In this document: positions 7,483 to 38,979 of the stretch, piece by piece
Layout of the letters: every line of letters begins with the position of its first letter
Position numbering within the stretch: position 1 is the first letter of the stretch
Assembly (NCBI GenBank): GCA_022791775.1
Contig: JAAVZT010000003.1
Location: 1 to 38,979 of the forward strand
DNA length: 38,979 bases
From: Bacilli bacterium
GTDB lineage: Bacteria; Bacillota_I; Bacilli_A; RF39; UBA660
Direction: 5' to 3'
The notes under the pieces: model-generated
Database searches by the model: none
What the model was told of the DNA's origin: nothing
Seen by the model: only the letters and a program-made list of their open reading frames with translations
Made by a program: the position numbers and the translations under genes

Positions 7483-7505
7483 GATATTAATGTGGGGTGG
7501 TAATG

Positions 7506-10418: not shown

Positions 10419-13400
10419 CCGAAGAAAGTAAATTTTTCCATACTATTGGATTTAGCAAAAATCCTCATGATTATAATATCAAAATCAAAAAAGTATTATT
10501 GATTCCAAGCATGGATATGATGGAAGTTCATTTAATCCTACCAAATCCACTACCGTATGATATTATGAAAGAATTACTTATGTGTGAAAATAAAGGAATT
10601 CAAGGAAAAAAATTTCGCCTTCGCTTTCAATATGAGGATATAGAGGAAGAAAGACTAAAAGAATACTTGGAACAAATGAAAAAAGAACTAATTGAGGAAA
10701 AACCATCTTTAATGGGAATGAAAGATACAGCCATTTTAATGGATGAAGATATTATCACCTTTGAAGTTACAAATAAAGTGGAAGAAATGGAAATCAAAAA
10801 AGAAGCAAAAAACATGAAAGAAAAATTGCTGTTATACGGCTTTGGGGAATATGAAATTGCAAGTTTTTTAAATAAAGAATTAAATGAAGAGGTCAAAAAA
10901 GCAATCGAAAATAGTAAAGTAAGCGAAGTTGCAAAAGAAGAAATAAAAATAAAAGAAGGAGAAACTATCATTGGTAAAAAAATTGAGGGTGAACCCAATA
11001 TTATTCATAATATAATGGGAGATATGAAAAATGTTGTGTTAGAAGTTTATGTCTTTGATAAAGAAGGTATGGAACGTGAAACAATTAACATTTTAACATT
11101 AAAGATTAGTGATCAAACAAACAGTATTTTAGCAAAAATATTTAAAAAGAAAAAAGAGGAATATAAAGCTGTTGATAAAGCGATAAAAATTGGAAAATGG
11201 TATCGAGTTCAAGGTAATGTAGAATATGATAATTTTGCCAAAGACTTTGTCTTAGCAATACGAAATATGGAGGAGATACCGAGTAAATCTGCCCAAATTA
11301 AAGATGAAGAAGAAGAAAAAAGAGTAGAATTACATGCTCATACTATGATGAGTGCGATGGATGGAGTAATAGAAGGAAAAGAATTAGTGAGTTATGCAAT
11401 TAAATTAGGTCATAAAGCTGTAGCTGTGACAGATCACAATTGCGTTCAATCTTTTCCAGAAATGTATCATGCAGTTCGAGATTATAACAAAGGAAAAGAA
11501 AAAGAAGACCATTTTAAAGTACTTTATGGGGCAGAGATGAACATCGTAAATGACGATGTGGATGTGATATTTAATTTAAAAGAATATAATTTCTTACAGG
11601 ATACTTATGTTGTATTCGATACCGAAACAACAGGTTTTTATGCTGGAGTAGATCAAATGATTGAAATCGGTGCCGTAAAAATACAAAATGGAGAAATCAT
11701 CGATCGCTTTGATGAACTAATTGATCCCCATCGTCCGATTCCTTCTAAAATTACAGAATTAACTTTTATTACAGATGAAATGGTAAAAGGAAAAGATGAT
11801 GAAGAAACGGTAACGAAACGATTTTTAGAATGGGTTTCCGATTTACCAATGGTAGCTCATAATGCCAAATTTGATATATCTTTCATGAAATCAGCTATGT
11901 CAAAATATCATTTAGGAGAATTTCAAAATACAGTAATAGATACCATGAGTTTAGCTAGAATTTTAAATCCAGATTGGGCCAATCATAAACTGCAAACACT
12001 AACAAGAAAATATAATATTGAATGGAACGAAGAGAAACACCATCGGGCAGATTATGATGCTGAAGGAACTGCTTTTGCATTTTATAAAATGAGTAAAGTA
12101 TTATCGGATCGAAACATTGAAACAACAACCAAATTATATGATTCAATTGATATTGAATCGCTCATTCGCTTTTCTTATCCTTTTCATGCAACTATTATTG
12201 CAAAGAATCGAGAAGGTTTAAAAAATCTATTTAAAATTATTTCCATTGCCAATACGAAATATTTATATAAAAATGAACAACCCAAAATCCCCCGTAAGGA
12301 AATTGTAAAATTACGAGAGGGTTTACTCATTGGAAGTGGGTGTGTAAATGGTGAAATTTTCGAAGCTGCGATGACCAAAGAGGATGAAGAGCTAGTAAAC
12401 ATGATGAATTTTTATGATTATATTGAAGTACAACCAATCAGTGCTTGTACGCAGTTAATTGGAGAAAATAGAACCTTTAAAACTGAGCAAGAACTACAAA
12501 AGAATATTGAAAAAATCATTCGAGTGGCAGCGTCTGCTGGAAAACCAGTATGTGCAACAAGTGATGCTCATCATCTAAGAAAAGACGATAAAATATATCG
12601 TGAAATTATAATTAATCAAAAGTTCAATGGACGCTTGCATCCTTTAAATCGAAAAGGAGTGCAGGTTCCTGATATGCATTTATTAACGACAAGAGAAATG
12701 CTAGATGCTTTTTCCTTCTTAAACGAAGAAGAGCGTCATAAGATTGTCGTTACCAATCCTTCGAATATTGCGGATATGGTAGAGGAAATTGAAGTAATTA
12801 TTGAAACAGGAGGAATTCCATTTGCACCTATTATTGAAAATTCTCAAATGATTGTAACTGATATGGTTTATGAAAAGGCCAAAGAGTGGTATGGAGATCC
12901 ACTTCCTTACCATATCGAAGAGAGAATTGCATTAGAATTATATGGTGCTTCCTTAATTGAAGCTGTAAAAAAGAATATAGGATCAGATGAAGCTAAGATA
13001 TATGCCCATTTGCATGATGTAATTCGAAAAGGTCCTGATAGTGTAGAAGAGGAAATTTATTTAAGTTTAAAGAATGAAAATAAGGAAACTACCGAAGAAG
13101 AATTAAAAAAAGAAGCAAAGAAAAAAATGACTGCTATTATAGGAGCAAATTTTGACGTAATTTATTTAATTTCTCAAAAACTAGTTAAACATTCGAATGA
13201 TGAAGGGTTCTTAGTAGGTAGTCGAGGCTCAGTAGGGTCATCTTTTGTAGCAAATTTGATGGGAATTACAGAAGTAAATTCCCTGGCGCCTCATTATCGT
13301 TGCCCGAAATGCAAACGAAGCGAATTTAATAATGAAGCAGGGGAACCATTAGGTAATGAATACAAATGTGGATATGATTTGCCAGATCGAAAATGTCCAA

Positions 13401-14926
13401 CTTGCAATATCAAAATGGTGAAAGAAGGACAAGATATTCCATTTCAAACTTTCCTTGGTTTTAATGCAGATAAAGTTCCCGATATTGATTTGAATTTTTC
13501 TGATTTAAATCAAGCATCTGCTCATGATTATACCAAAGTATTATTTGGAGTAGATAATGTATATCGTGCTGGAACAATTGGAACGGTTGCGGAAAAAACA
13601 GCTTATGGATATGTAAGAGGATATTGTGAAGATAAAAGTATTATTATGCGTAATGTTGAAATTGAGCGATTAGCGAAAGGATGTACGGGAGTAAAAAGAA
13701 CAACTGGTCAACATCCTGGAGGAATAGTCGTTATTCCTGGTTATATGGAAGTGTCTGATTTCACACCATTTCAATTTCCAGCGGAAGATCCAAATAGTCC
13801 ATGGCGAACCACTCATTTTGATTATCATGCCATCGATGAATGTGTTTTAAAACTAGATATTTTAGGTCATACCGACCCAACACAGCTTCGAATGATTCAG
13901 GACTTAACTGGCGAAGATGTTCGAAATGTGCCCTTAGATGATAAAGAAACCATGTCAATCTTTACAAGTACCAAAGCACTTGGTGTAACGTCAGAACAAA
14001 TCATGTGTGACACTGGAACACTAGGTGTTCCTGAGTTTGGTACTCCATTTACCATTCAATTAGTAAAAGACACCAAGCCCAAAACATTCGCCGAGTTAAT
14101 TAAAATTTCCGGCTTATCTCATGGTACTGATGTGTGGCTTGGTAATGCGCAAGAACTAATCCAAAAAGATATTGTGCCATTTGGAAAAGTAATTGGTTGT
14201 CGAGACGATATCATGGTAGAACTGATGTATGGTGGCTTAGAACCATTTAAAGCTTTTAAAATAATGGAATTTGTGCGAAAAGGAAAAGCCAGCAAAGATC
14301 CAGAAACATGGCAAGGATTTGTAGAAATTATGGAAAAGGCCAAAATTCCAGATTGGTTTATTAAATCTTGTTTTAAAATTAAATACATGTTTCCAAAAGC
14401 ACATGCCGCTGCTTATGTTATGAGTGCATTTCGAATTGCTTGGTTTAAAGTTCATAAACCGAATATCTATTATGCAACCTATTTTTCTACTCGTTTTGAA
14501 GACTTTGACTTAGAAGTAATGATGAAAGGATATGACGCAATCCGTGCTAAAATTCTAGAAATTCAAAGTAAAGGGTATGATGCAACCAATAAAGAACAAG
14601 CAGTCTTAGAAACATTAAAATTATCTTTAGAGGCAACAGCTAGAGGATTTCGTTTTGGAAAATTAGATATTAATAAAAGTGATTCAGTAAATTTTTTAAT
14701 TGATGAAGAAGATGATCATTTATTAATTCCACCATTTCGTACATTAGATGGTCTTGGAGATGCAGTTGCTAAAAAAATAATAGAAGAGCGCAATCAAAAA
14801 CCGTTTTATAGTGTTGAAGATTTTCAAATGCGTGGAAAAGTAAATGCTACTACAATCGAAAAACTTAGAAGTTTAGGGCTATTTGAAGGAATGCCAGAAA
14901 CAAGCCAATTAAGTTTTGGATTTTAA
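10415..14926 (+). CDS. polC: DNA polymerase III PolC, Gram-positive type with built-in 3'-5' exonuclease
   Basis: A 1503-residue main replicase of low-GC Gram-positives. N-terminal and OB domains (1-~300); PHP part with intact VELHAHTMMSAMDG (~306) and AVTDHN; an inserted DEDDh proofreading exonuclease (~400-570) opening at VVFDTETTG, with AHNAKFD and HRADYDAEGT; the PHP continues with ATSDAHHL; a zinc-binding module with CPKCKR...CGYD...CPTCN (~960-1005); catalytic PDIDLNFSD (~1025); TTGQHPGGIVV and VLKLDILGH; FPKAHAAAYV near the C-terminus. Length and domain order are canonical. It shares an ATGA junction with dnaE, so initiation and elongation polymerases come from one message. Confidence 0.97.
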   Translation: MTEESKFFHTIGFSKNPHDYNIKIKKVLLIPSMDMMEVHLILPNPLPYDIMKELLMCENKGIQGKKFRLRFQYEDIEEERLKEYLEQMKKELIEEKPSLMGMKDTAILMDEDIITFEVTNKVEEMEIKKEAKNMKEKLLLYGFGEYEIASFLNKELNEEVKKAIENSKVSEVAKEEIKIKEGETIIGKKIEGEPNIIHNIMGDMKNVVLEVYVFDKEGMERETINILTLKISDQTNSILAKIFKKKKEEYKAVDKAIKIGKWYRVQGNVEYDNFAKDFVLAIRNMEEIPSKSAQIKDEEEEKRVELHAHTMMSAMDGVIEGKELVSYAIKLGHKAVAVTDHNCVQSFPEMYHAVRDYNKGKEKEDHFKVLYGAEMNIVNDDVDVIFNLKEYNFLQDTYVVFDTETTGFYAGVDQMIEIGAVKIQNGEIIDRFDELIDPHRPIPSKITELTFITDEMVKGKDDEETVTKRFLEWVSDLPMVAHNAKFDISFMKSAMSKYHLGEFQNTVIDTMSLARILNPDWANHKLQTLTRKYNIEWNEEKHHRADYDAEGTAFAFYKMSKVLSDRNIETTTKLYDSIDIESLIRFSYPFHATIIAKNREGLKNLFKIISIANTKYLYKNEQPKIPRKEIVKLREGLLIGSGCVNGEIFEAAMTKEDEELVNMMNFYDYIEVQPISACTQLIGENRTFKTEQELQKNIEKIIRVAASAGKPVCATSDAHHLRKDDKIYREIIINQKFNGRLHPLNRKGVQVPDMHLLTTREMLDAFSFLNEEERHKIVVTNPSNIADMVEEIEVIIETGGIPFAPIIENSQMIVTDMVYEKAKEWYGDPLPYHIEERIALELYGASLIEAVKKNIGSDEAKIYAHLHDVIRKGPDSVEEEIYLSLKNENKETTEEELKKEAKKKMTAIIGANFDVIYLISQKLVKHSNDEGFLVGSRGSVGSSFVANLMGITEVNSLAPHYRCPKCKRSEFNNEAGEPLGNEYKCGYDLPDRKCPTCNIKMVKEGQDIPFQTFLGFNADKVPDIDLNFSDLNQASAHDYTKVLFGVDNVYRAGTIGTVAEKTAYGYVRGYCEDKSIIMRNVEIERLAKGCTGVKRTTGQHPGGIVVIPGYMEVSDFTPFQFPAEDPNSPWRTTHFDYHAIDECVLKLDILGHTDPTQLRMIQDLTGEDVRNVPLDDKETMSIFTSTKALGVTSEQIMCDTGTLGVPEFGTPFTIQLVKDTKPKTFAELIKISGLSHGTDVWLGNAQELIQKDIVPFGKVIGCRDDIMVELMYGGLEPFKAFKIMEFVRKGKASKDPETWQGFVEIMEKAKIPDWFIKSCFKIKYMFPKAHAAAYVMSAFRIAWFKVHKPNIYYATYFSTRFEDFDLEVMMKGYDAIRAKILEIQSKGYDATNKEQAVLETLKLSLEATARGFRFGKLDINKSDSVNFLIDEEDDHLLIPPFRTLDGLGDAVAKKIIEERNQKPFYSVEDFQMRGKVNATTIEKLRSLGLFEGMPETSQLSFGF

Positions 14927-25704: not shown

Positions 25705-26649
25705 ATGCTAAAAAAAAGTGCTTTAAGAAGAATCACTGTAACCTCTGTGGCTCTTTTAATTTTTGGAATTATTTCAATTTTTCCGACAAAAATAGAAGAA
25801 ACTTTTACAACAGATGTAAAACCTAACACTCCCATTTATAAAGCTATATACTTATTAGATCAACAAGAATTTGTAGCTAGAACCAATGTTGTCTTGAAAA
25901 ATGAAGATAAACTGAATCAAGCTCGTGAAATGGTGGAAATGCTAACTATTAATGGGACAAAATCTCATTATTTACCAAATGGGTTTACGGGAGTTTTACC
26001 TAGTGGAACGAAATTAAATGACATTGCAATGCAAAATGGAATATTAAAATTGGATTTTGATGAAACTTTCCTAAAACTTCCAAAAGAAAGAGAAGAAGAT
26101 GCTATTGAAAGTTTAACTTTTTCATTAACCGAAATACCAGATATCAAAGGAATATTAATTTATATTAATGGGGATTTGTTAACAAAACTTCCTAAATCAA
26201 ATATTAAATTACCAACCACTCTCACAAGAGATTATGGAATTAACAAAGTATATGATTTAACAAAACTTCAAAATGCTGTAAAAACAACAACCTATTATGT
26301 CAGTAAATATAATGATCAAGTTTATTATGTCCCTGTAACTGAAATAACAAATAGTGATAAAAGCAAAGTAGAAGTAATTATCGAAAGATTAAAAAGTTCT
26401 GCTACACATCAAACCAATCTAATGAGCTACTTAAATGCCAATGCTCAATTATTAGATTATGAAATATTAGAAAATGATATTTCATTAAGTTTTAATCATT
26501 ATTTACTAGATGACTTTCAAAATAAGCAAATATTAGAAGAAGTGGAATATTCCATTGCGTTATCTATGCGCGATACGTTAGATGTTTCGAACACTTTTTT
26601 TAAGATAAATGGTGAAGCAATAGAAAGTAAAAATTTAAAAATAGAATAA
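25705..26649 (+). CDS. GerMN domain protein (GerM/LpqB-type), membrane-anchored
   Basis: 314 residues. N-terminal membrane helix (~9-27, VTSVALLIFGIISIF) acting as anchor or uncleaved signal; no lipobox Cys. Two tandem GerMN (sporulation/spore germination) domains: first ~43-170 (YLLDQQEFVARTNVVL, LNQAREMVEMLTI, FDETFLKLP, LTFSLTEIPDIKGI), second ~195-305 (YYVSKYNDQVYYVPVTEI, VEVIIERLKSS, LSFNHYLLDD, EEVEYSIALSMRDT). In Bacillus GerM takes part in sporulation and germination, but GerMN proteins also occur in non-sporulating lineages, and no other sporulation gene is certain in this window. The domain call is good; the role is unknown. Confidence 0.82.
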   Translation: MLKKSALRRITVTSVALLIFGIISIFPTKIEETFTTDVKPNTPIYKAIYLLDQQEFVARTNVVLKNEDKLNQAREMVEMLTINGTKSHYLPNGFTGVLPSGTKLNDIAMQNGILKLDFDETFLKLPKEREEDAIESLTFSLTEIPDIKGILIYINGDLLTKLPKSNIKLPTTLTRDYGINKVYDLTKLQNAVKTTTYYVSKYNDQVYYVPVTEITNSDKSKVEVIIERLKSSATHQTNLMSYLNANAQLLDYEILENDISLSFNHYLLDDFQNKQILEEVEYSIALSMRDTLDVSNTFFKINGEAIESKNLKIE

Positions 26650-26705: not shown

Positions 26706-26782
26706 GTTCGCGTAGCTCAGTTGGATAGAGCAATCGCCTTCTAAGCGATCGGTCGAGAGTTCGAATCTCCCCGCGAACACCA
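26706..26782 (+). tRNA. tRNA-Arg, anticodon TCT
   Basis: A 77-nt cloverleaf with encoded CCA. Acceptor GTTCGCG pairs with CGCGAAC; D arm GCTC...GAGC; anticodon stem ATCGC/GCGAT with loop CTTCTAA (anticodon TCT, reading AGA/AGG, the common Arg codons in this AT-rich DNA); variable loop CGGTC; T arm GAGAG-TTCGAAT-CTCCC. The second T-stem pair is an A-C mismatch. The discriminator base is A. Confidence 0.97.
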
Positions 26783-29147: not shown

Positions 29148-29843
29148 TTGTTAACTGTTAAACGCCAAGAAATTAAATATCTTCTAAATACGATCGATTA
29201 CAAAAAAAAGAAAAACTATGTATCCAAAGTATTGTTAAACGATGTTCACAATAAAGATACTGGCTATATTGTTCGCTCTTTATATTTTGATACATTAGAA
29301 GATCGAGATTTTTTTGAAAAAGAGGCAGGAATCGAATTACGAAGAAAAATTAGATTGCGGGTTTATGATCCTAAAGCTGAATACGCCATGTTAGAAATGA
29401 AACAAAAAGAAGGAAACTATCAACTAAAACGCTCCTTAAAAGTTAGTAGAGACGATGCCAAAGAATTGTGTATGGGAAATTATACGAGTCTATTAAAATA
29501 TGATGATCCATTTGCCAAAGAAATGTATGGTTATATGATGATGTATACCTATAAACCAAAAGTAATCGTAGAGTATCAAAGAGATGCATATTATGCGAAA
29601 GAAAATAGCATTCGCATTACCTTTGATCATCATTTAGTTGCTACTGAAAGTTCCTATAATATTTTTGACGAACAACTGCAAATGAGCCCAATCATTGCTT
29701 CTGATATGGTTGTTTTAGAAGTTAAATATAATGGCTTTCTACTTAGTTATATTAAAGACTTAGTTTTAGATTCATCCTGCAAAAGTACATCAGTAAGCAA
29801 ATATTATATGTCAAGAAATATATCCCACAAAGTAATATTATAA
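29148..29843 (+). CDS. VTC domain protein (polyphosphate polymerase-like fold)
   Basis: 231 residues. The VTC/triphosphate-tunnel pattern is visible: KRQEIKYLL at the start, VRSLYFDTLEDRDFFEK, RRKIRLRVYD, YAMLEMKQKEG, LKRSLKVSR, KPKVIVEYQRDAYY, IRITFDHHL and VVLEVKYNGFLL. The alternating basic (RxKxRxR, KR) and acidic (ExK) strands are those lining the tunnel that binds polyphosphate or nucleotide in yeast Vtc4. In bacteria this domain commonly travels with DUF4956 and CotH proteins; its substrate there is not established. Start: a GTG at 29127 sits in a hairpin with no SD; TTG 29148 has AGGGGTGAT five nt upstream and is preferred. First gene of the cluster. Confidence 0.85.
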   Translation: MLTVKRQEIKYLLNTIDYKKKKNYVSKVLLNDVHNKDTGYIVRSLYFDTLEDRDFFEKEAGIELRRKIRLRVYDPKAEYAMLEMKQKEGNYQLKRSLKVSRDDAKELCMGNYTSLLKYDDPFAKEMYGYMMMYTYKPKVIVEYQRDAYYAKENSIRITFDHHLVATESSYNIFDEQLQMSPIIASDMVVLEVKYNGFLLSYIKDLVLDSSCKSTSVSKYYMSRNISHKVIL

Positions 29844-29861
29844 AGAAAGAGAGTTTTATGT

Positions 29862-30542
29862 ATGAAAGACAAATTAATTGATTTATTAGAGGTATCATCA
29901 AGCACCTTAACGCTTGAACAAATTACAATGCATTTATTTGTAGCAGTAATTTTAGGATTTGCTATATTTTTATCCTACTATATAACGCACGAGGGAACAA
30001 TCTATAGCAAAAAATTTAATGTTTCCTTGGTAATGCTAACTGTATTAACTACAATGGTAATGACCGTAATTGGAAATAACATTGCCCTTTCATTAGGTAT
30101 GGTCGGAGCCTTATCTATTGTACGTTTTAGAACGGCTATCAAAGACTCTAGAGATACAGCTTACATCTTTTGGACTATTATTGTAGGTATTTGCTGTGGA
30201 GTAGGAGATTATGTAGTTGCAAGTTTAGGGACAGTTACTGTATTTTTGATCATGATGATGTTAGGGAGAATCAAAAATGACAATCGTATTTTAGTAATTA
30301 TTAAAACAAGTTTAAGTAATGAACGAAAAGTAGAAGGAATTGTATTTGAGTACTTTATGAAAAAAGCAAATTTAAAAGTAAAAAATACCACTGACAAGTC
30401 TATCGAGTTTATTTATGAATTGCCAAAAAAATATTATACGCAATCGCTAGAAAAAGAAAAAAGTATTACAGAAGCGCTTTATGAATTAAAAAATGTTGAA
30501 TATGTCAACATCGTATCTCAAAATGATGAAATAAGTGGCTAA
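29862..30542 (+). CDS. DUF4956 integral membrane protein
   Basis: 226 residues. Four hydrophobic segments in the first ~145 residues (AVILGFAIFLSYYIT, VSLVMLTVLTTMVMTVIG, IFWTIIVGICCGVG, VTVFLIMMMLG) enclose the family core GNNIALSLGMVGALSIVRFRTAIKDSRDTAYIFW. A soluble ACT-like C-terminal part (~150-226) follows. DUF4956 proteins are usually next to a VTC gene, as here, and probably form a membrane partner or channel for it (inference). Weak ribosome binding site; 18 nt after the VTC gene. Confidence 0.88.
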   Translation: MKDKLIDLLEVSSSTLTLEQITMHLFVAVILGFAIFLSYYITHEGTIYSKKFNVSLVMLTVLTTMVMTVIGNNIALSLGMVGALSIVRFRTAIKDSRDTAYIFWTIIVGICCGVGDYVVASLGTVTVFLIMMMLGRIKNDNRILVIIKTSLSNERKVEGIVFEYFMKKANLKVKNTTDKSIEFIYELPKKYYTQSLEKEKSITEALYELKNVEYVNIVSQNDEISG

Positions 30543-30544
30543 TT

Positions 30545-32017
30545 ATGAAAAATAAAACTATAATTTTACTACTGAGCGTAGCTTTAATTATTTTTTCTTT
30601 TTTCATGAATGATTATCAGGAAAAAAATACGCATCATCGTTATCAAGAACATCTAGAAAAAGAAACTATGTATCCCAATTATAACTATCAAAGCATTAAT
30701 GCTAGCACTTATCAAACTAAAAATATTACTGAGCAAAATATCTCTTCTCATTTACCCATTTTATCTTTCGAAACGAAAGAAGCGATCCATGGTGCAAATG
30801 ATAAAGAAGATAATATTTATGTAAACGCCTCTTTAAAAGTGTATGATGAAGCAACTCAAAAAAATAGAATGACAACAGAAACCTATTCTACAGAAAGTCT
30901 CATTCGATATCGTGGAAATTCATCTCGTTTTTTTGAAAAAAAAGGCTTGCGAATCAAACTGACAGATGAAAAAGGAAAAGATAATGATTATCCTCTGTTA
31001 GGACTTTCAAAAGATCATGACTTTGTTCTGCATAATCCATACTTAGATAAAACATTATTACGAAATTATCTAGGATACAATCTAACTGGAGAGGTTATGG
31101 AATATTCTCCCAATGTTCGATTCTGTGAAGTGTTTATTAATCATGAATATCAAGGAGTATATTTACTAGTAGAGACTATTAAAGTATCTCAAAACAGAGT
31201 AAATATATCAGAATTAAATAAAAATGCAAAAGTAACAAGTTATATCTTAGAGATTAATCATCGATATAGCTATGAAGAAGATAATATTTATTTAAATAAT
31301 TTTACAAATTACACAAATCGAATGAAAACAAATTCTGCATATAAAATCAAATATCCAAGTGCAAAGAATTTAACTCAAGATATAAAACAATATATCGAAA
31401 AAGATGTAAATGAATTTGAACGGAAAATATACTCTTATGACTATGATAATGAAAAGAAAGGTTATTATAAAGATATAGATATTGATTCTTTTGTGAATTA
31501 TGTCGTAATGAATGAATTCTTTTTAAATTATGATGCGGGATTTAACTCAACATATCTTTATAAAGATAAAACAGGTAAATTTAAAATTGCGTTTTGGGAC
31601 ATGAATAATATTTTCAATAATTATTTTGCAGATGTTTTAGATGGTCAAGATTTTAATTTTCAAAATCGTCCTTGGTTTCAAATGTTATTAAAAGACGAAT
31701 ATTTTACAGAAAGAGTCATTAAAAGATACCGAGAGTTGCGTCAAACCATATTGAATGAAGAATATTTATATCATTATATTGACGATACGATTAATTATTT
31801 AGGAGAAGCGATTGAACGAAATTACATCCGCTGGGGAGACTCCTTTACAGATGAGAAAAATTTATACATCAATCCAGAACGAAATATTCATTCTTATAAA
31901 GAAGCAATAGATCAAATAAAAAATGTCATTCATGAAAGAGGGATTTGGTTAGATAAAAATATTGATTCTTTAAAGCAATTTAGTCATGAATCAAAAGTGA
32001 AAGAAATGAATCCTTAG
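30545..32017 (+). CDS. CotH-type atypical protein kinase, secreted or membrane-anchored
   Basis: 490 residues. N-terminal membrane anchor (~5-21, IILLLSVALIIFSFFM), then an external domain. CotH-kinase signatures: LIRYRGNSSRFFEKKGLRIKL, LLGLSKDHDFVLHNPYLDKTLLRNYLGY, FCEVFINHEYQGVYLLVETIK (ATP-site region), YVVMNEFFLNYDAGFNSTYLYK, and FKIAFWDMNNIFNN, the metal-binding WD...N region, where typical members read WDxDxxFGN. Spore-coat CotH of Bacillus phosphorylates coat proteins outside the cytoplasm; here the target may be a cluster protein or the glycan (inference). It starts 2 nt after the DUF4956 gene. Confidence 0.88.
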   Translation: MKNKTIILLLSVALIIFSFFMNDYQEKNTHHRYQEHLEKETMYPNYNYQSINASTYQTKNITEQNISSHLPILSFETKEAIHGANDKEDNIYVNASLKVYDEATQKNRMTTETYSTESLIRYRGNSSRFFEKKGLRIKLTDEKGKDNDYPLLGLSKDHDFVLHNPYLDKTLLRNYLGYNLTGEVMEYSPNVRFCEVFINHEYQGVYLLVETIKVSQNRVNISELNKNAKVTSYILEINHRYSYEEDNIYLNNFTNYTNRMKTNSAYKIKYPSAKNLTQDIKQYIEKDVNEFERKIYSYDYDNEKKGYYKDIDIDSFVNYVVMNEFFLNYDAGFNSTYLYKDKTGKFKIAFWDMNNIFNNYFADVLDGQDFNFQNRPWFQMLLKDEYFTERVIKRYRELRQTILNEEYLYHYIDDTINYLGEAIERNYIRWGDSFTDEKNLYINPERNIHSYKEAIDQIKNVIHERGIWLDKNIDSLKQFSHESKVKEMNP

Positions 32018-32031
32018 AAACGAGGTAATAC

Positions 32032-34161
32032 ATGAAAAAATTTATCATTTGTTTATTTGGAATCATAGGGTTCTATGTTTTATGGGACTTAGCTTATTAT
32101 CGTTGGGGATTTTATGTTCCAAATGATAAAGAAGTAGAAATAATCAGTTATACAAATTCTAAAGAGATGTTTATCAAAAATTCAAATGATTACCAAAAAA
32201 TAACGATAAAAGGTGTTAACATAGGGGGATCTATTCCCGGAAGTTATGTAACAGATTACGCAATTAGCTACCAAACATACTATAAATGGTTTGAACAAAT
32301 TGCAGAAATGGGAGCCAATACATTACGTTTAAATACTATATTTAATAATGACTTTTATAATGCTTTATACGACTACAATGAGCAACATGCGCAAAAATTA
32401 TATTTAATTCAAGGAATTAATTTAGAGTCATATAATTTAAATGCAACCTATGATGGCTACCATGCCAAATTTTATGGTGAATTAATTACACAAGCTGAAA
32501 ATGCTGTCGATGTAATACATGGTAGAAAAAAAATGTTATTAAACGATTTTGGAAAAGGTGTCTATAAAAAAGATGTTTCAAATTATGTGCTAGCTTTTAT
32601 CATTGGAAGTGAGTGGATAGATGATACTATCTTATATACCGATAAAAATAATCCAAATAAAAACCAATTTGATGGCAATTACTTAAAAACGACCGAAAAT
32701 GCAACTCCATTTGAAACTATGCTTACAAAAGTAATGGATCATTTGCTAACCTATGAAGCGCAGAAATATCGGATGCAACATAGTATTTCATTTATTAATA
32801 CACCAGAAACCGATCCCGTTGCTACGATTCCTAAAATTGTAATCGATAAAGAAAAGGACATAGAATATTTAGATCCACCAAATTTAAAATATTACTATCA
32901 CAAAATGGTAGAATTAGATTTAGAACATATAACTCCAAAAAAGGATTATAATGGCTTATTTGCCTCTTATAATGTATCTTCGTATTATCCGAATTATCTA
33001 AGTTACGAATTACATGAGTATAATGACACCTATCTAGCATACTTAGAAAAATTAACTGCTCATCATACTGTTCCTGTAATGATTACTGAATTTGCATATT
33101 CCACTTCTAGAGGTGTATCTTCTGTTGTAGAAGATAAATATGGAAACTTGGGTGGAATGACTGAAGAAGAACAAGGAAAGTCAATTGTTTCTGCTTATCA
33201 AACCATATTAAAATCAGGATGTATGGGGGGATTAATTGCAACCTGGCAAGATGAATGGGATAAACGTTCTTGGAATACTGTTGAAAAAGTAGATACGGTA
33301 AAAGGGATAAACTGGAGCGATACACAAACTGCAAATCAGGGACTTGGTATATTAACATTTGATCCAGGAAAAGAAAAATCAGTTTGTTATGTGGATGGAG
33401 AAACAGAAGAATGGTCAACTGAGGATCTCATTTTTGAAAATGAAGACGCTAAATTAAGCGTAAAACAAGACGAAAAATATCTTTATTTATATGTTAATAA
33501 AAAAAAGAAAACAGATACGCTCTATATTCCATTTGATATTACAAGCAAAAGTGGAACCGATAAATATGAATTAGCCAATCTTCAATTTGATCGAGATGTT
33601 GACTTTTTATTAGTTTTAAATGGACGAGAAGGCGAAATCTTGGTTCAAGAATATTATAACGTTTTAAAAGCGATAAACGGTTACGAAATTAGCAATCGTA
33701 ATTCTTATATAAATCCTCCAAAAAAAGATTCCCTACTATTTGAAGAAATCAAACTTTTGATTGAACCTTATGGTACTAATATTTTCAGTCATAATTATAA
33801 ACAAGCAGTGCTCCGAAATACAGGTAAATTAACTTATGGGAATGCCAATCCTTCTGCAAAAACATATCATTCTCAAGCAGATTTTTACGAAAAAGATAAT
33901 CAACTTGAAATTCGAATTCCTTGGCAAATATTGAATTTTTCAAATCCTTCTAATAATCAAATTCATGATGATTATTATGAAAATTTTGGAGTAGATAGTT
34001 ACGAGATTAAAGAAATATACCTGGGGGTAGCAAGTGGAAATAATCAAAAAATAAACCTTGCTCCTTATCGTTTAAAAGCATGGCATGAGCATGTAACTTA
34101 TCATGAACGATTAAAAAAATCATATGACATTATAAAAAATAGTTGGAGGGCGATTCCATGA
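32032..34161 (+). CDS. Membrane-anchored glycoside-hydrolase-like TIM barrel with a C-terminal beta domain
   Basis: 709 residues: N-terminal membrane helix (~3-20), catalytic-like barrel ~55-430, beta-rich C-terminal domain ~445-700 resembling a carbohydrate-binding or DOMON/CBM9-like sandwich. Barrel signs: ITIKGVNIGGSIPG, MGANTLRLNTI, LAFIIGSEWID (Glu194, acid/base position), VPVMITEFAYS (Glu353, nucleophile position) and GGLIATWQDEWDKRSW, the strand-end pattern of clan GH-A (GH2/GH5-like) enzymes. It may trim or remodel the cluster's polysaccharide outside the membrane. No family number can be given with confidence. SD GAGGTAA precedes the ATG; the next gene overlaps by ATGA. Confidence 0.7.
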   Translation: MKKFIICLFGIIGFYVLWDLAYYRWGFYVPNDKEVEIISYTNSKEMFIKNSNDYQKITIKGVNIGGSIPGSYVTDYAISYQTYYKWFEQIAEMGANTLRLNTIFNNDFYNALYDYNEQHAQKLYLIQGINLESYNLNATYDGYHAKFYGELITQAENAVDVIHGRKKMLLNDFGKGVYKKDVSNYVLAFIIGSEWIDDTILYTDKNNPNKNQFDGNYLKTTENATPFETMLTKVMDHLLTYEAQKYRMQHSISFINTPETDPVATIPKIVIDKEKDIEYLDPPNLKYYYHKMVELDLEHITPKKDYNGLFASYNVSSYYPNYLSYELHEYNDTYLAYLEKLTAHHTVPVMITEFAYSTSRGVSSVVEDKYGNLGGMTEEEQGKSIVSAYQTILKSGCMGGLIATWQDEWDKRSWNTVEKVDTVKGINWSDTQTANQGLGILTFDPGKEKSVCYVDGETEEWSTEDLIFENEDAKLSVKQDEKYLYLYVNKKKKTDTLYIPFDITSKSGTDKYELANLQFDRDVDFLLVLNGREGEILVQEYYNVLKAINGYEISNRNSYINPPKKDSLLFEEIKLLIEPYGTNIFSHNYKQAVLRNTGKLTYGNANPSAKTYHSQADFYEKDNQLEIRIPWQILNFSNPSNNQIHDDYYENFGVDSYEIKEIYLGVASGNNQKINLAPYRLKAWHEHVTYHERLKKSYDIIKNSWRAIP

Positions 34162-35228
34162 ATCGAATTGCAGAGAATATTTTATATTTATACTTGATTG
34201 TCTTCCTATCAGTATTAGGCTTTGACATCGCCTGCATTTTTGTTCGCAAATGGAATGAAAAGCATTTAGAAAATCTGAAAAATAATTTACTTCGCTTTTT
34301 GTCACAAAATAAAAAAAATATTCGCAGTTTAAAATTTCAAAAACAATTTATTAAAAAATTAAAAAAAATGAATTACTTTATTGCATTTACGAATATAGTA
34401 GAAAATATGGATAAACAAGAAAAAGAAGTTTTTTTAAGATCGTTAAAATATACTTTTTTAAAAATATTAAAACATTATCAAAATGAGGAATCCATTCGTC
34501 AAACATACTTTGTTCATTTTTTAGCGGAAAATTCATTTATTTATAAAGATAATAAAAATGCTTTGATCAATTATTTGATAAAATGTACAACAACTACCTC
34601 AATTTATTTAAGAGAAAATGCTCTACATGCTTTGTATCAATCTGGAAGAGTAGAGTATATAAAAGAAGCCTTCTCCAAAATGAATTATTTAAATATTGCT
34701 CATCACCATAAATTGCTTACGGATGGACTATTAAAATTTAAAGGAAATAGCAAAGAATTAGCAAATTGTTTGCTTCTTGAACTAAAAGATTATAATGAAA
34801 ATTATCAAATTGCTTGTATTAATTATTTCAGTTATAAAAAGATTGAATGTCAAGAAATCTTGTTCCAATATCTAACAAATAAAAAAGAAAAAAAAGAAGT
34901 TCGATTAGCATGCTTACGCTATTTTAAGAATATATATTATCAACCCGTTGAAAAAGTGTTATATGATTTCTTAGAGGATGAAAAACAGAATTGGGAATAT
35001 GCAGCGATTGCGGCAAGTACACTAAGTAATTATCAAAATAAAGAAACTGTGAAACGTTTAATTACTTCCTTAAAAAGTTATAATTGGTACGTTCGAAATA
35101 ATGCGGCTATGAGCATAACCAATGCCAATGATATTGAGATATTACAAACAATTTTACAAAAAATAGATGATCAATATGCTAAAGACGCCTTGTTATATCA
35201 AATGAGATTACAAAGAAAGTTGGGATAA
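34158..35228 (+). CDS. HEAT-like helical repeat protein with an N-terminal membrane anchor
   Basis: 356 residues. One membrane helix at ~5-26 (ILYLYLIVFLSVLGFDIACIF), then an all-helical body. The C-terminal half shows HEAT-like units: RLACLRYFKNIYYQPVEKVL, EYAAIAASTLSNYQNKETVK and WYVRNNAAMSITNANDIE, each with the A-xx-L and asparagine/aspartate turn pattern. Such repeats are protein-binding scaffolds and probably hold the neighbouring synthase or hydrolase at the membrane (inference). A TTG at 34143 lies in the ribosome binding site, so ATG 34158 with GGAGGG 7 nt upstream is chosen. One base separates its stop from the GT2 start. Confidence 0.75.
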   Translation: MNRIAENILYLYLIVFLSVLGFDIACIFVRKWNEKHLENLKNNLLRFLSQNKKNIRSLKFQKQFIKKLKKMNYFIAFTNIVENMDKQEKEVFLRSLKYTFLKILKHYQNEESIRQTYFVHFLAENSFIYKDNKNALINYLIKCTTTTSIYLRENALHALYQSGRVEYIKEAFSKMNYLNIAHHHKLLTDGLLKFKGNSKELANCLLLELKDYNENYQIACINYFSYKKIECQEILFQYLTNKKEKKEVRLACLRYFKNIYYQPVEKVLYDFLEDEKQNWEYAAIAASTLSNYQNKETVKRLITSLKSYNWYVRNNAAMSITNANDIEILQTILQKIDDQYAKDALLYQMRLQRKLG

Positions 35229-35229
35229 A

Positions 35230-36633
35230 ATGGCTTTAGAAATTACAAAACTTATTTTAAAATACGTGAGTTATTTTTTCATTGTATATATGTTATTTTA
35301 TTCTACCTTCTTGTTTTTTTCAGCTATAATGGGCTCCATCCGCTTATTTAAAAATCGTTATAAAGATATTATGCATAATAAAATCAAACATGATTACTAT
35401 GTTCCAGTATCCATATTAGTTCCAGCATATAATGAAGAAAAAGTAATCATTTCTAGTATTAAATCATTGCTATATTTAGACTATAAATTATATGAAATAA
35501 TTGTAATTAATGATGGAAGTAGTGATAGTACTTTAGAAAAAGTGATCAAAGAATTTAATTTAACCAAGATCGATAAACCCTATAAACGCCAAATTAAAAC
35601 CCAAAAAGTAAGAGGAATCTATGAAGGAACTTGCAAAAATGTAACCATTACGCTTATTGATAAAGAGAATGGGGGAAAATCGGACTCTCTAAATGCTGGA
35701 ATTAATCTTTCCCGTTATCCATATTTCCTAGCAATGGACGCTGATTCTATCCTTCAAAAAGATTCCTTAGAACAATTAGTTAGACCTATACTAGAAGAAG
35801 AAAATATCATTGCTTGTGGAGGTTTTATTCGTCTTAGTAATGCGGTAACAATTGAAAAAGGAGAAGTTACACATTATGCGTTACCCAAAAATGCATTAGT
35901 TTGTATGCAAGTAATTGAATACGATCGTTCCTTTTTGGCTTCGCGAATTTTATTAGATGAATATAATGGAAATTTAATTATTTCAGGTGCCTTTGGGCTG
36001 TTTCAAAAAGAAATAGTACTATCAATAGGTGGGTATGACAAAAATACAGTTGGAGAAGATTTTGAATTAGTTTCCAAATTACATGTTTTTTGTCAAAAAA
36101 ATGGCATAGATTATCGGATCCGTTATATTCCAGAAGCAATTTGTTGGACGCAAGCACCAAGTACTTTAAAGGATTTAATCAAGCAAAGAAAAAGATGGTA
36201 TACTGGTTTGGTTCAATGTATGTATAAATATAAAGAAATGTTCTTTAATTATCATTATGGTTTCTTAAGTTTCATTTCCTTTTTCTATTATTTATTTTTT
36301 GAATTATTAGCACCTTTTATTGAAATATTTGGTCTTATTTCAACCATTTTAGCCTTATACTTTGGCATTTTAAACGTCCCTTTTATGATATTGTTTTATC
36401 TTTTATATACGGCTTTTGGATGTATTATGTCTTTAACAACATTTTTTTCTCGAATTCATCTAGCAAATAATAAGTTGTCTTTTTGGGATATATGTAAAGC
36501 TGGGTTAGTTTGTTTATTTGAAATTGTGATTTTACGAACGATTTTAATGGTAGCACGACTTACAACCTTTTTTGGATATAAGAAAAAAAGAATGCGTTGG
36601 GATAAAATTAATCGAACGGAGTTGAACCTATGA
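35230..36633 (+). CDS. Processive family 2 glycosyltransferase (polysaccharide synthase)
   Basis: 467 residues, membrane bound. N-terminal membrane helix (~9-35), cytosolic GT-A domain ~55-290, then three or four membrane helices to ~450. Catalytic pattern of hyaluronan/PNAG/cellulose-type synthases: VSILVPAYNEEKVI, VINDGSSDSTL, GKSDSLNAGI, AMDADS (DxD near 170), SGAFGLFQ, VGEDFEL (GED base) and QRKRWYTG (QxxRW product channel). It would polymerise and extrude a beta-linked glycan from a UDP-sugar; the sugar cannot be read off. Similar to the YdaM/IcaA class. It overlaps the next gene by ATGA. Confidence 0.92.
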   Translation: MALEITKLILKYVSYFFIVYMLFYSTFLFFSAIMGSIRLFKNRYKDIMHNKIKHDYYVPVSILVPAYNEEKVIISSIKSLLYLDYKLYEIIVINDGSSDSTLEKVIKEFNLTKIDKPYKRQIKTQKVRGIYEGTCKNVTITLIDKENGGKSDSLNAGINLSRYPYFLAMDADSILQKDSLEQLVRPILEEENIIACGGFIRLSNAVTIEKGEVTHYALPKNALVCMQVIEYDRSFLASRILLDEYNGNLIISGAFGLFQKEIVLSIGGYDKNTVGEDFELVSKLHVFCQKNGIDYRIRYIPEAICWTQAPSTLKDLIKQRKRWYTGLVQCMYKYKEMFFNYHYGFLSFISFFYYLFFELLAPFIEIFGLISTILALYFGILNVPFMILFYLLYTAFGCIMSLTTFFSRIHLANNKLSFWDICKAGLVCLFEIVILRTILMVARLTTFFGYKKKRMRWDKINRTELNL

Positions 36634-37460
36634 AAAAACGAAATGCCGTTCTTTTTTGTATTTTACTATTTATACTAAGTGGACTTTTAGTAAAATTAAG
36701 TAAAAAAGAAAGAAATGAAACAGAAACAAAAGAAGAATATAATCGAATTTTATATTCTTGGAATATAAATGATATTGAAGAAGATGAAAATAGATTTCAA
36801 CAAATAATTAAAGAATATCAAATTAATAAAATTTACCAGGACTTTACCAGTGAATATTTAAATCAAAATGATGATACATTTATAAAAAAATTATCCGATC
36901 AGAATATAACAGTATATCATTTAGCTGGAGACCCATCTTGGGGACAAAAAGGCGGCTTTTATAAAATCGCTGAGGAAATAGACAAAGTTGTAAATTTTAA
37001 TCAAAATGTTACCAATCCTCTTAAAGGAATTGTTTTAGATATAGAACCATATGTAAGCGAGAAAAAAGAAGAGTTTCAAGAAAAAGATTTTGAAATTTAT
37101 GTTCGTGAAATAAAAAAAGCGTACCGTTACATTGCTAATAAAAATTTAGAACTTATTTTAGCTATTCCATATTGGTTCGATAAAATTAATCTAGAGCTTT
37201 TAGAAGAATTAATTCAAAATACAGATGGGATATCAGTTATGAATTACAATATCAATCGTACAAAAGAAAACATTGAAGTAGAGCTTAAATTAACACATAA
37301 ATACGAGAAAGAAATTGATACAATTTATGAGATCGCTTATCAAGAAGATGGATACTTTAAAGAAAAAGAAGAGATAAAGCAAGATTTTGTTCAAATTTTA
37401 AATAATGAACAGAAAAAACAAGTAAACATTGCCTATCATCATTATCGCAGTATGAAATAA
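36630..37460 (+). CDS. Membrane-anchored glycosidase-like (TIM-barrel) protein
   Basis: 276 residues with an N-terminal membrane helix (~6-23) and an external domain. Visible barrel strands: ILYSWNINDIE, VYHLAGDPSWGQ, LKGIVLDIEPYV (Asp137, Glu139), LELILAIPYWFDK, DGISVMNYNINR and IDTIYEIAYQ. The LDIEPY motif with an acidic pair at a strand end resembles the catalytic DxE of GH18-type barrels, but the full DxxDxDxE is absent, so a family assignment is not made. Last gene of the operon; it probably acts on the product of the GT2 just upstream. Confidence 0.65.
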   Translation: MKKRNAVLFCILLFILSGLLVKLSKKERNETETKEEYNRILYSWNINDIEEDENRFQQIIKEYQINKIYQDFTSEYLNQNDDTFIKKLSDQNITVYHLAGDPSWGQKGGFYKIAEEIDKVVNFNQNVTNPLKGIVLDIEPYVSEKKEEFQEKDFEIYVREIKKAYRYIANKNLELILAIPYWFDKINLELLEELIQNTDGISVMNYNINRTKENIEVELKLTHKYEKEIDTIYEIAYQEDGYFKEKEEIKQDFVQILNNEQKKQVNIAYHHYRSMK

Positions 37461-37466
37461 ACATAT

Positions 37467-37494
37467 TTGCTTTCCCAAAAATATTTAGTATACT
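37467..37494 (+). promoter_or_regulatory. Promoter for the GGDEF gene
   Basis: TTGCTT (37467-37472), 16-nt spacer, TATACT (37489-37494), then AAGGA (37501-37505) and ATG 37515. Confidence 0.6.
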
Positions 37495-37497
37495 AAA
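37484..37497. promoter_or_regulatory. Perfect 14-bp palindrome over the -10, possible operator
   Basis: TTTAGTATACTAAA is completely self-complementary and covers the TATACT -10 box, a position where a bound dimer would block transcription. Chance is possible in AT-rich DNA. Confidence 0.4.
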
Positions 37498-37514
37498 AAA
37501 AAGGAATGACAATC

Positions 37515-38979
37515 ATGAAAGAGAAAAAGAAAAAAAATAAAAAGCAACAGCTTACAATATTTATGATTGGAATGTTTATCTTCTTATGCTTTATCTTATC
37601 AATTCTTTACAGTTTGGGGATGAAACAATTAACTTATCATAACGTATATAAAAACATTTCTGAATTAAGTGAACAAACAGCAACTCAATTAAGCATGTCT
37701 ATAAAAAATCAAATGAAATTTTTAGATCTGATCGTCGACTTTATAAATGGAGGATATGCCAAAACAGAAGATGAAATATTTAAACGGTTTGAGCCAGACT
37801 TAACAAGTTACCATTTTACTAGATTGGTAATTTTGGATTCAAAAGGAAATGGAAAAACCAGTGATGGTTATACGGTGAAGAATTATCCAAATATAGAAGA
37901 ATTTTTTGCTCAAGAAACAACCTATTTGTCAGAAAATCGTCCAAGTACAGTTAGTGAAAATCAAGTAAATATTTATTCCAAAGTATTTGATTGGCACGGA
38001 GAAAAAAAAGTAATATTTGCAACCATTCATACAAATAATTATGAAGAAATTTTAGAAAGACGCTTATTTAATGGATTGGGTACGACATACTTAATTAATA
38101 ATCAAGGAGAAATATTAATTGGAGCTCAAGAAAAAAATTGGAATTCTAATTTTTATGAATATTTAAAAAATAATTATCAAGTAAAATCAAAAAAAGAGTT
38201 AGAAAAAATAACAAATATGTCAAATCAAATCTTAAACAATAAAGTTGGAACATTTTATATTTCGCTAAAAAATCAAGTTCATTTTATCCATTATGAAAAA
38301 TTAAATATTAATAATTGGTACGTTGTAACATTAGCACCTGGTAGTACGATTGCAAAAGAGCTATCTACTTTCTTAAGTATTTCTCTTGGCTTATGTTTTT
38401 TGCAATTAATTATATTATTTAGTATTTTTATTTATATCTATCTTGGAAAACAAAAGCAAAACAAACAATTATATGAAATGGCTTATTTAGATCCCATTAC
38501 CAATTTAGGAAATGAATATTTCTTCAAAGAACATAGTAAAGAATTTTTAAATCAATCTCCAAATCATCAATATATTATGATGATTGATATTAATAAATTT
38601 AAACATTTTAATAAGATTTATGAATATGAATTCTGTAACGAAATACTAAAATGTTTTGGTCAAAAACTAAAAAATACGCTACCTAAAAATAGTATCGTAA
38701 GTAGAGTATCTCGAGATGTTTTTCTAGCGTATTTTTCCTATACTGGAAAAATAGAACATTTAATGAAAACATTATTTGTTGCTTTAGAAGATCTAAAGGT
38801 ATATACCATTCATATTCATATTAATGTTGCAGCTGGAATATATAAAATTACGAAGAAAGATATTGATATGAACGATATATTAGATAAAGTAGACACAGCT
38901 CATGCGAAATCAAAAGGACCATATGATAGTAACTATTATATATTTGATGAAGAATTAGAAAATAAAATGCTTGAAGAAC
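37515..38979 (+). CDS. dCache-type sensor with degenerate GGDEF domain (3' end outside the window)
   Basis: 488 codons are present and open at the right edge. Basic N-terminus (KEKKKKNKK), membrane helix ~13-35, extracellular sensory domain ~37-280 with Cache-like LVILDSKGNGKTSDG, YSKVFDWHGEKKVIFATI and TTYLINNQGEIL, second membrane helix ~283-308, then GGDEF fold ~325-480 (LDPITNLGNEYFF, IMMIDINKFKHFN, INVAAGIYKI, DKVDTAHAKSKG). The active-site GGDEF is SRDVF (399-403), so diguanylate cyclase activity is very unlikely. The end, IFDEELENKMLEE, resembles the linker that often precedes an EAL domain, which may lie beyond the edge. With its own promoter after the GT2 operon it probably senses or relays a signal to it, like the degenerate GGDEF receptor YdaK of B. 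subtilis. Confidence 0.85.
   Translation, partial: MKEKKKKNKKQQLTIFMIGMFIFLCFILSILYSLGMKQLTYHNVYKNISELSEQTATQLSMSIKNQMKFLDLIVDFINGGYAKTEDEIFKRFEPDLTSYHFTRLVILDSKGNGKTSDGYTVKNYPNIEEFFAQETTYLSENRPSTVSENQVNIYSKVFDWHGEKKVIFATIHTNNYEEILERRLFNGLGTTYLINNQGEILIGAQEKNWNSNFYEYLKNNYQVKSKKELEKITNMSNQILNNKVGTFYISLKNQVHFIHYEKLNINNWYVVTLAPGSTIAKELSTFLSISLGLCFLQLIILFSIFIYIYLGKQKQNKQLYEMAYLDPITNLGNEYFFKEHSKEFLNQSPNHQYIMMIDINKFKHFNKIYEYEFCNEILKCFGQKLKNTLPKNSIVSRVSRDVFLAYFSYTGKIEHLMKTLFVALEDLKVYTIHIHINVAAGIYKITKKDIDMNDILDKVDTAHAKSKGPYDSNYYIFDEELENKMLEE

Follow-up and report, generated by a model that had tools for sequence, protein, structure and literature searches.

A candidate synthase-dependent exopolysaccharide operon with an attached phosphate module in a Bacilli genome of the RF39 lineage

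In this study, the window was a stretch of 38,979 nucleotides from a Bacilli bacterium (contig JAAVZT010000003.1), the host genome being 1.1 Mb in size and 91% complete. Eight genes, all on the plus strand, were found from position 29148. The first seven occupied 29148–37460 in the order VTC, DUF4956, CotH, clan GH-A barrel, HEAT, processive GT2, and GH18-like barrel (Table 1). Their successive distances were 18, 2, and 14 nt, a 4-nt overlap, 1 nt, and a 4-nt overlap; gene 8 followed gene 7 after 45 nt. The seven-gene cluster described in the initial annotation, with gaps of at most 19 nt, was present in full, with gaps of no more than 18 nt. The VTC gene started with TTG at 29148, preceded by GGGGTGAT. 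Promoter and terminator scans of the locus gave signals no higher than the shuffled expectation. A tRNA-Arg (TCT) gene at 26706–26782, 2.4 kb upstream of the cluster, is a possible integration site. Elsewhere in the window (7497–14926), the genes for the DnaE-type and PolC-type DNA polymerase III alpha subunits overlapped each other by 4 nt.

Table 1. Features of the locus, with positions in the window and the evidence for each assignment
Feature	Position	Strand	Evidence
VTC-type polyphosphate polymerase domain protein, soluble	29148..29843	+	Pfam PF09359 8e-40; Vtc4 profile match
DUF4956 membrane protein, MgtC-like	29862..30542	+	Pfam 3e-14; regular VTC partner
CotH kinase, secreted or membrane-tethered	30545..32017	+	Pfam 2e-62; invariant columns; alignment with CotH structure 5jd9
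709-aa membrane-anchored clan GH-A TIM barrel with C-terminal beta domains	32032..34161	+	AlphaFold2; fold match to GH157
HEAT-repeat protein, one N-terminal TM helix	34158..35228	+	Pfam HEAT_2 2e-10; GT2 neighbour
Processive GT2 polysaccharide synthase	35230..36633	+	Pfam 4e-25; NCBIfam PgaC 143 bits; PDB cellulose synthase chains
276-aa membrane-anchored GH18-fold barrel	36630..37460	+	Alignment invariants; AlphaFold2; fold match to Cwp19/GH18
Membrane sensor, 750 aa, first part	37506..38979	+	Degenerate GGDEF; EAL domain past window edge

The VTC protein matched Vtc4 structures in a profile search (4e-7). The basic residues aligned with K200, R264, R266, K281, K294, R361, and R373 of Vtc4, which we take to line the catalytic tunnel and presumably act as in Vtc4, were conserved. 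Ppk1 was looked for in the 1.1-Mb genome and was not found, so that VTC was the only candidate long-chain polyphosphate polymerase seen there in a search that covered Ppk1. A literature search on the biochemistry of bacterial VTC proteins gave nothing usable. The genome had one CotH copy. Besides its Pfam match, CotH kept the catalytic Lys, Glu, and Asp residues of the kinase: K132, E210, D330, and D352 were invariant and aligned with CotH structure 5jd9. DUF4956 was the most conserved protein of the set, and its streptococcal homologue has four TM helices and an ACT-like C-terminal domain (PMC12345266). Twenty further DUF4956 loci were sampled in the class (L139–L158), none with this GT2, and VTC adjoined DUF4956 in every one, in agreement with the initial description of DUF4956 as the usual membrane partner of VTC. 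In 12 of these 20 loci a Cthe_2159 (PF14262) carbohydrate-binding protein was encoded, directly after VTC-DUF4956 where checked, and one sampled DUF4956 locus encoded an LRR-LTD-CotH protein. On Pseudobutyrivibrio plasmid pNP95 (L162, NZ_CP043029.1, 4467–7606), CotH-VTC-DUF4956 lay inside a GT4/pyruvyltransferase polysaccharide cluster. Judging from these neighbourhoods, the phosphate module can move between loci and accompanies surface-polymer functions. With the VTC and CotH active sites conserved, the earlier idea that phosphate chemistry is involved appears reasonable; phosphate on the glycan itself stays a proposal.

The GT2 protein had intact D, DAD, GED, and QRKRW motifs, which bears out its assignment as a processive synthase, and it was matched to cellulose synthase chains in the PDB. 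The upstream protein, taken initially for a membrane HEAT protein, had both the HEAT_2 match and a single N-terminal TM helix. This helix was followed by basic residues, so that the HEAT repeats are predicted from the positive-inside rule to lie in the cytosol. The HEAT gene accompanied GT2 in 86 loci, essentially every GT2 locus retrieved, and was nearly always directly upstream. The pair was found in seven phyla, including Actinomycetota, Gemmatimonadota, Acidobacteriota, Aminicenantota, Bacteroidota, and Spirochaetota. Because of this near-constant adjacency across seven phyla, HEAT-GT2 looks like the synthase core. In Saccharicenans the next gene at the HEAT-GT2 locus encoded a YaiO/TPR outer-membrane barrel, as export in a diderm would predict. 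The GT2 alignment worked as a query for genome scanning; a single-protein scan with the HEAT protein gave no match.

The 709-aa and 276-aa proteins had no match in a Pfam family search, and profile searches of solved structures with the DUF4956, GH-A, and GH18-like families gave none or weak matches. The AlphaFold2 model of the 709-aa protein (pLDDT 90.6) showed a clan GH-A TIM barrel with C-terminal beta domains. It was closest to a GH157 beta-1,3-glucanase (VIA Z 24, rmsd 2.4, 312 residues, 15% identity), a match at the level of fold only. In the window copy, E194 and E353 occupied the acid/base and nucleophile positions. Among the cassette homologues, about a dozen carried substitutions at one or both of these residues, so the general role of the GH-A protein is probably not hydrolysis. 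Solo homologues of the 709-aa protein occurred in other Bacilli (L016–L022) with the rest of the cassette absent, and both Glu were kept in the six of six that were aligned. The 276-aa model (pLDDT 88.8) showed a GH18-type barrel with VIA Z of 17–19 to Cwp19 and GH18. D137-x-E139 and M204-x-Y206 stood at the GH18 positions on strands 4 and 6 of the TIM barrel, and both D-x-E and M-x-Y were invariant in 18 sequences. Four members of this family gave no match to the Pfam GH18 profile; the protein is therefore described as GH18-like in fold and is not classed as a GH18 member. Of the 37 complete loci described below, 15 carried its gene, either right before VTC or after GT2. The two anchored barrel enzymes of the initial annotation are thus both predicted to be membrane-anchored TIM barrels, but catalysis is probably not a family-wide property of the GH-A protein, and the notion of two active enzymes was dropped as its general role.

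The GT2 profile search gave 80 named loci, and genomes of relatives were added to the set. Co-occurrence in relatives, which had been proposed as the check on the cluster, was found: VTC-DUF4956-CotH-GH-A-HEAT-GT2 lay in identical order on a single strand in 37 loci, with a further six that were partial or cut by contig ends standing outside this count. The carriers were Bacilli, Erysipelotrichaceae, Clostridia, Paenibacillus, Bacillaceae, and Coriobacteriia. Median intergenic gaps across cassettes were −4 to 17 nt, and most gaps were under 40 nt. With 37 loci in the same order, the arrangement is far beyond chance. Pairwise gene-distance correlations were 0.50–0.87, all 15 above each of 999 permutations; these indicate joint inheritance rather than function, since shared ancestry alone also yields such correlations. 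In a quick tree, the cassette GT2s fell on one side of a single branch (support 82), and the GT2 of the window branched far from that of its family-mate G173. The complete unit, including the GH18-like gene, was also found on a 67-kb plasmid of Planococcus maritimus XJ11 (L161, NZ_CP059541.1, 4470–12824). The distant tree positions and the plasmid copy suggest that the cassette was transferred as a block. A synthase operon (GH-A, HEAT, and GT2) and a separate phosphate operon might adjoin by mere chance, given that HEAT-GT2 occurred without VTC in 43 loci and VTC-DUF4956 without this GT2 in the 20 sampled loci. The 37 conserved loci with their short gaps and correlated divergence, the single clade of GT2s, and the complete plasmid unit make this explanation extremely improbable.

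Departures from the standard arrangement were also seen. Three cassettes were interrupted: in one, three minus-strand ORFs broke up the GH-A ORF (L047, 3681–8857), in another CotH was in two pieces (L060, 5231–6731), and in the third a GGDEF gene lay between VTC and DUF4956 (L070, 2967–4361). At a further locus (L041, 11412–13280), a purple-acid-phosphatase-like protein was encoded 14 nt 3′ of GT2.

On the contig, gene 8 (L014, 11507–13756) encoded a membrane protein of 750 aa, in which a degenerate GGDEF motif (SRDVF) was followed by an EAL phosphodiesterase domain whose EAL, ExTES, DDFG, and QG motifs read intact. The initial label of degenerate GGDEF sensor was right about the GGDEF domain but described half of the protein. 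The host genome had two GGDEF proteins and one EAL protein, and no PilZ domain was found in the whole 1.1-Mb genome. The only other GGDEF protein (L160, 2268–4307; G000 C19) read DGNEF at its motif and had a large extracytoplasmic region; its activity, and with it c-di-GMP synthesis in the host, is uncertain. The density of GGDEF/EAL genes was about 7.7 per 100 kb near the clusters and about 1.1 far from them, an approximate sevenfold ratio, as near and far were defined slightly differently for genes and bases. EAL was encoded nearby in 10 of 43 cassette loci and in none of 43 other HEAT-GT2 loci. GGDEF (11 of 49 proteins) and EAL (8 of 49) were the commonest flanking Pfam domains, with cassettes flanked by c-di-GMP genes forming a minority. 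The HEAT gene of Bacillaceae HEAT-GT2 loci was directly preceded by a GGDEF/response-regulator gene. One Bacillaceae HEAT-GT2-GH locus (L084, 5423–17849) lay amid genes for CheW-RR, GGDEF-RR, a response regulator, and a hybrid kinase. A search for the c-di-GMP-I riboswitch gave no match and was uninformative, as the control sequences gave none either. Because EAL/GGDEF proteins recur beside the cluster, control by c-di-GMP through some receptor is likely. Control and export had been expected to differ from those of cellulose or PNAG systems; this agrees with the lack of a PilZ or BcsB-like subunit among what was found, but the EAL/GGDEF neighbours make c-di-GMP control likely here as well.

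Production and export of a surface sugar polymer is very probably the function of the cluster, as first proposed. The processive-GT2 motifs, the HEAT-GT2 core, the secreted barrels, the c-di-GMP genes at the edge, and the gene order kept across classes all agree with this. With moderate confidence, the locus can be identified as a synthase-dependent exopolysaccharide operon that is linked to c-di-GMP and carries an attached phosphate module. In its favour, deletion of the DUF4956 and CotH homologues beside Pel in S. intermedius changes Pel amount and aggregation (PMC12345266). Counted against it are the retention of Pel in VTC-less S. intermedius (PMC12345266), the host genome without PilZ and with DGNEF in its other GGDEF protein, and the fact that most cassettes have no flanking c-di-GMP genes. 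A 2-acetamido group normally takes part in GH18 chemistry. The polymer is probably based on N-acetylhexosamine, as weakly hinted by the predicted GH18-type fold and by a GT2 that is PgaC-like at a score under the cut-off. Active-site residues were intact in GT2, VTC, CotH, the GH18-like protein, and EAL. GT2 would polymerize a sugar, most likely an N-acetylhexosamine, out of a nucleotide sugar and thread the chain through the membrane. HEAT would be the subunit of this synthase that is anchored in the membrane and lies in the cytosol, taking the place of BcsB/PgaD-type partners. On the outer face, the GH-A barrel may hold or guide the chain, its catalysis being dispensable across the family, and the GH18-like protein may trim or release it. 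The adjacent EAL protein would tune c-di-GMP and so switch synthesis via a receptor. VTC would convert ATP to polyphosphate at the inner face, DUF4956 would serve its passage or gating, and the extracytoplasmic CotH kinase would phosphorylate some part of this machinery on the outer face.

What the phosphate module does can be read in more than one way. CotH family members are protein kinases, and the module may be purely regulatory within the exopolysaccharide operon: CotH would phosphorylate a secreted partner such as GH-A, polyphosphate would be internal or a signal, and the polymer would be phosphate-free. We regard this as possible but doubtful. ATP is normally unavailable extracellularly, and CotH always follows VTC-DUF4956 in the cassette, which suggests a supply role instead. 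VTC-DUF4956 is also found without any synthase, as a regulatory module would allow. Deletion of the DUF4956 or CotH homologue beside Pel in S. intermedius altered Pel amount and aggregation but did not abolish Pel, and the strain without the VTC homologue beside Pel retained aggregation and Pel production (PMC12345266). A bolder and rather unlikely proposal is that VTC-DUF4956 both makes polyphosphate, or some other phosphoryl donor, and exports it as fuel for CotH, by which the nascent exopolysaccharide or its outer-face carrier would be phosphorylated. The trio would then be a portable, c-di-GMP-linked extracellular module serving HEAT-GT2, Pel, and other synthases.

The first known context of CotH was the spore coat, and a GerMN-like gene was present at 25705–26649. 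CotH and its partners could thus phosphorylate spore- or envelope-coat proteins, with the GT decorating coat or wall glycans and no free polymer being made. This is very improbable, as the genome is only 1.1 Mb, a processive-type GT2 is present with c-di-GMP genes close by, and non-spore-forming groups carry the cassette (Coriobacteriia) or related trios (streptococci). A spore-coat role was set aside as unlikely from genome size and taxa.

If the exopolysaccharide reading is true, HEAT-GT2, present in several phyla, joins the short list of synthase-dependent exopolysaccharide synthases, a function is suggested for a locus linked to avian disease and on record since 2010, and the phosphate supply of extracellular kinases becomes testable. 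That locus is NELoc-2 of Clostridium perfringens (PMC2879425, Table 4), which encodes VTC (230–232 aa), a "222–226 aa" protein, CotH (497 aa), a 685-aa protein, HEAT (377 aa), and a GT2 (466 aa) labelled chitin synthase. Compared through the published table rather than by sequence, its families, order, and sizes are like those of the window, where all six families likewise follow this order on a single strand. NELoc-2 differs in having a duplicated VTC pair that flanks a resolvase and a sigma factor gene upstream, whereas the GH18-like and EAL genes of the window are not listed in its table.

Gram-positive Pel loci with cotH, PPP (VTC), DUF4956, and DUF4832 have also been reported (PMC7112168; for S. 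intermedius, PMC12345266), and bifidobacterial Pel loci carry a DGC/PDE gene (PMC7112168). As in the window, a phosphate trio lies beside a synthase-dependent exopolysaccharide locus, but the Pel synthase is pelDEADAFG instead of HEAT-GT2 and the accessory hydrolase differs. No pelDEADAFG-type domains were found among the cluster proteins scanned; the phosphate trio is the only shared part. The statement in PMC12345266 that the synteny of CotH, VTC, and DUF4956 is absent outside Pel loci is contradicted by the trio in the present loci, which corrects the published statement.

The PNAG synthases PgaC/IcaA and the cellulose synthase BcsA, which are linked to c-di-GMP in many species, share the processive GT2 and the QxxRW-type motif with the window. 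The locus did not classify as a PNAG (Pga/Ica) system, with the GT2 at 143 bits under the 422-bit cut-off of the PgaC_IcaA equivalog, nor as a cellulose (Bcs) system, with 49 bits under the 699-bit cut-off of CelA and no PilZ found in the genome. PgaB, PgaD, BcsB, and PilZ were looked for and not found, and HEAT is the partner in their place. No polysaccharide deacetylase (PgaB/IcaB) was encoded among the cluster proteins or common flanking families; three were present elsewhere in the genome. VTC shares the polymerase tunnel residues of Vtc4 in the yeast VTC complex, but it is short and soluble, without SPX or TM parts, and has DUF4956 as its membrane partner. No report of the product or mechanism of the locus, and no product measured in any organism, was found in the literature. 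The gene list itself is already known, from NELoc-2 in 2010 and, for CotH, VTC, and DUF4956, beside streptococcal Pel. The locus of the window is therefore rated as a variant of synthase-dependent exopolysaccharide systems.
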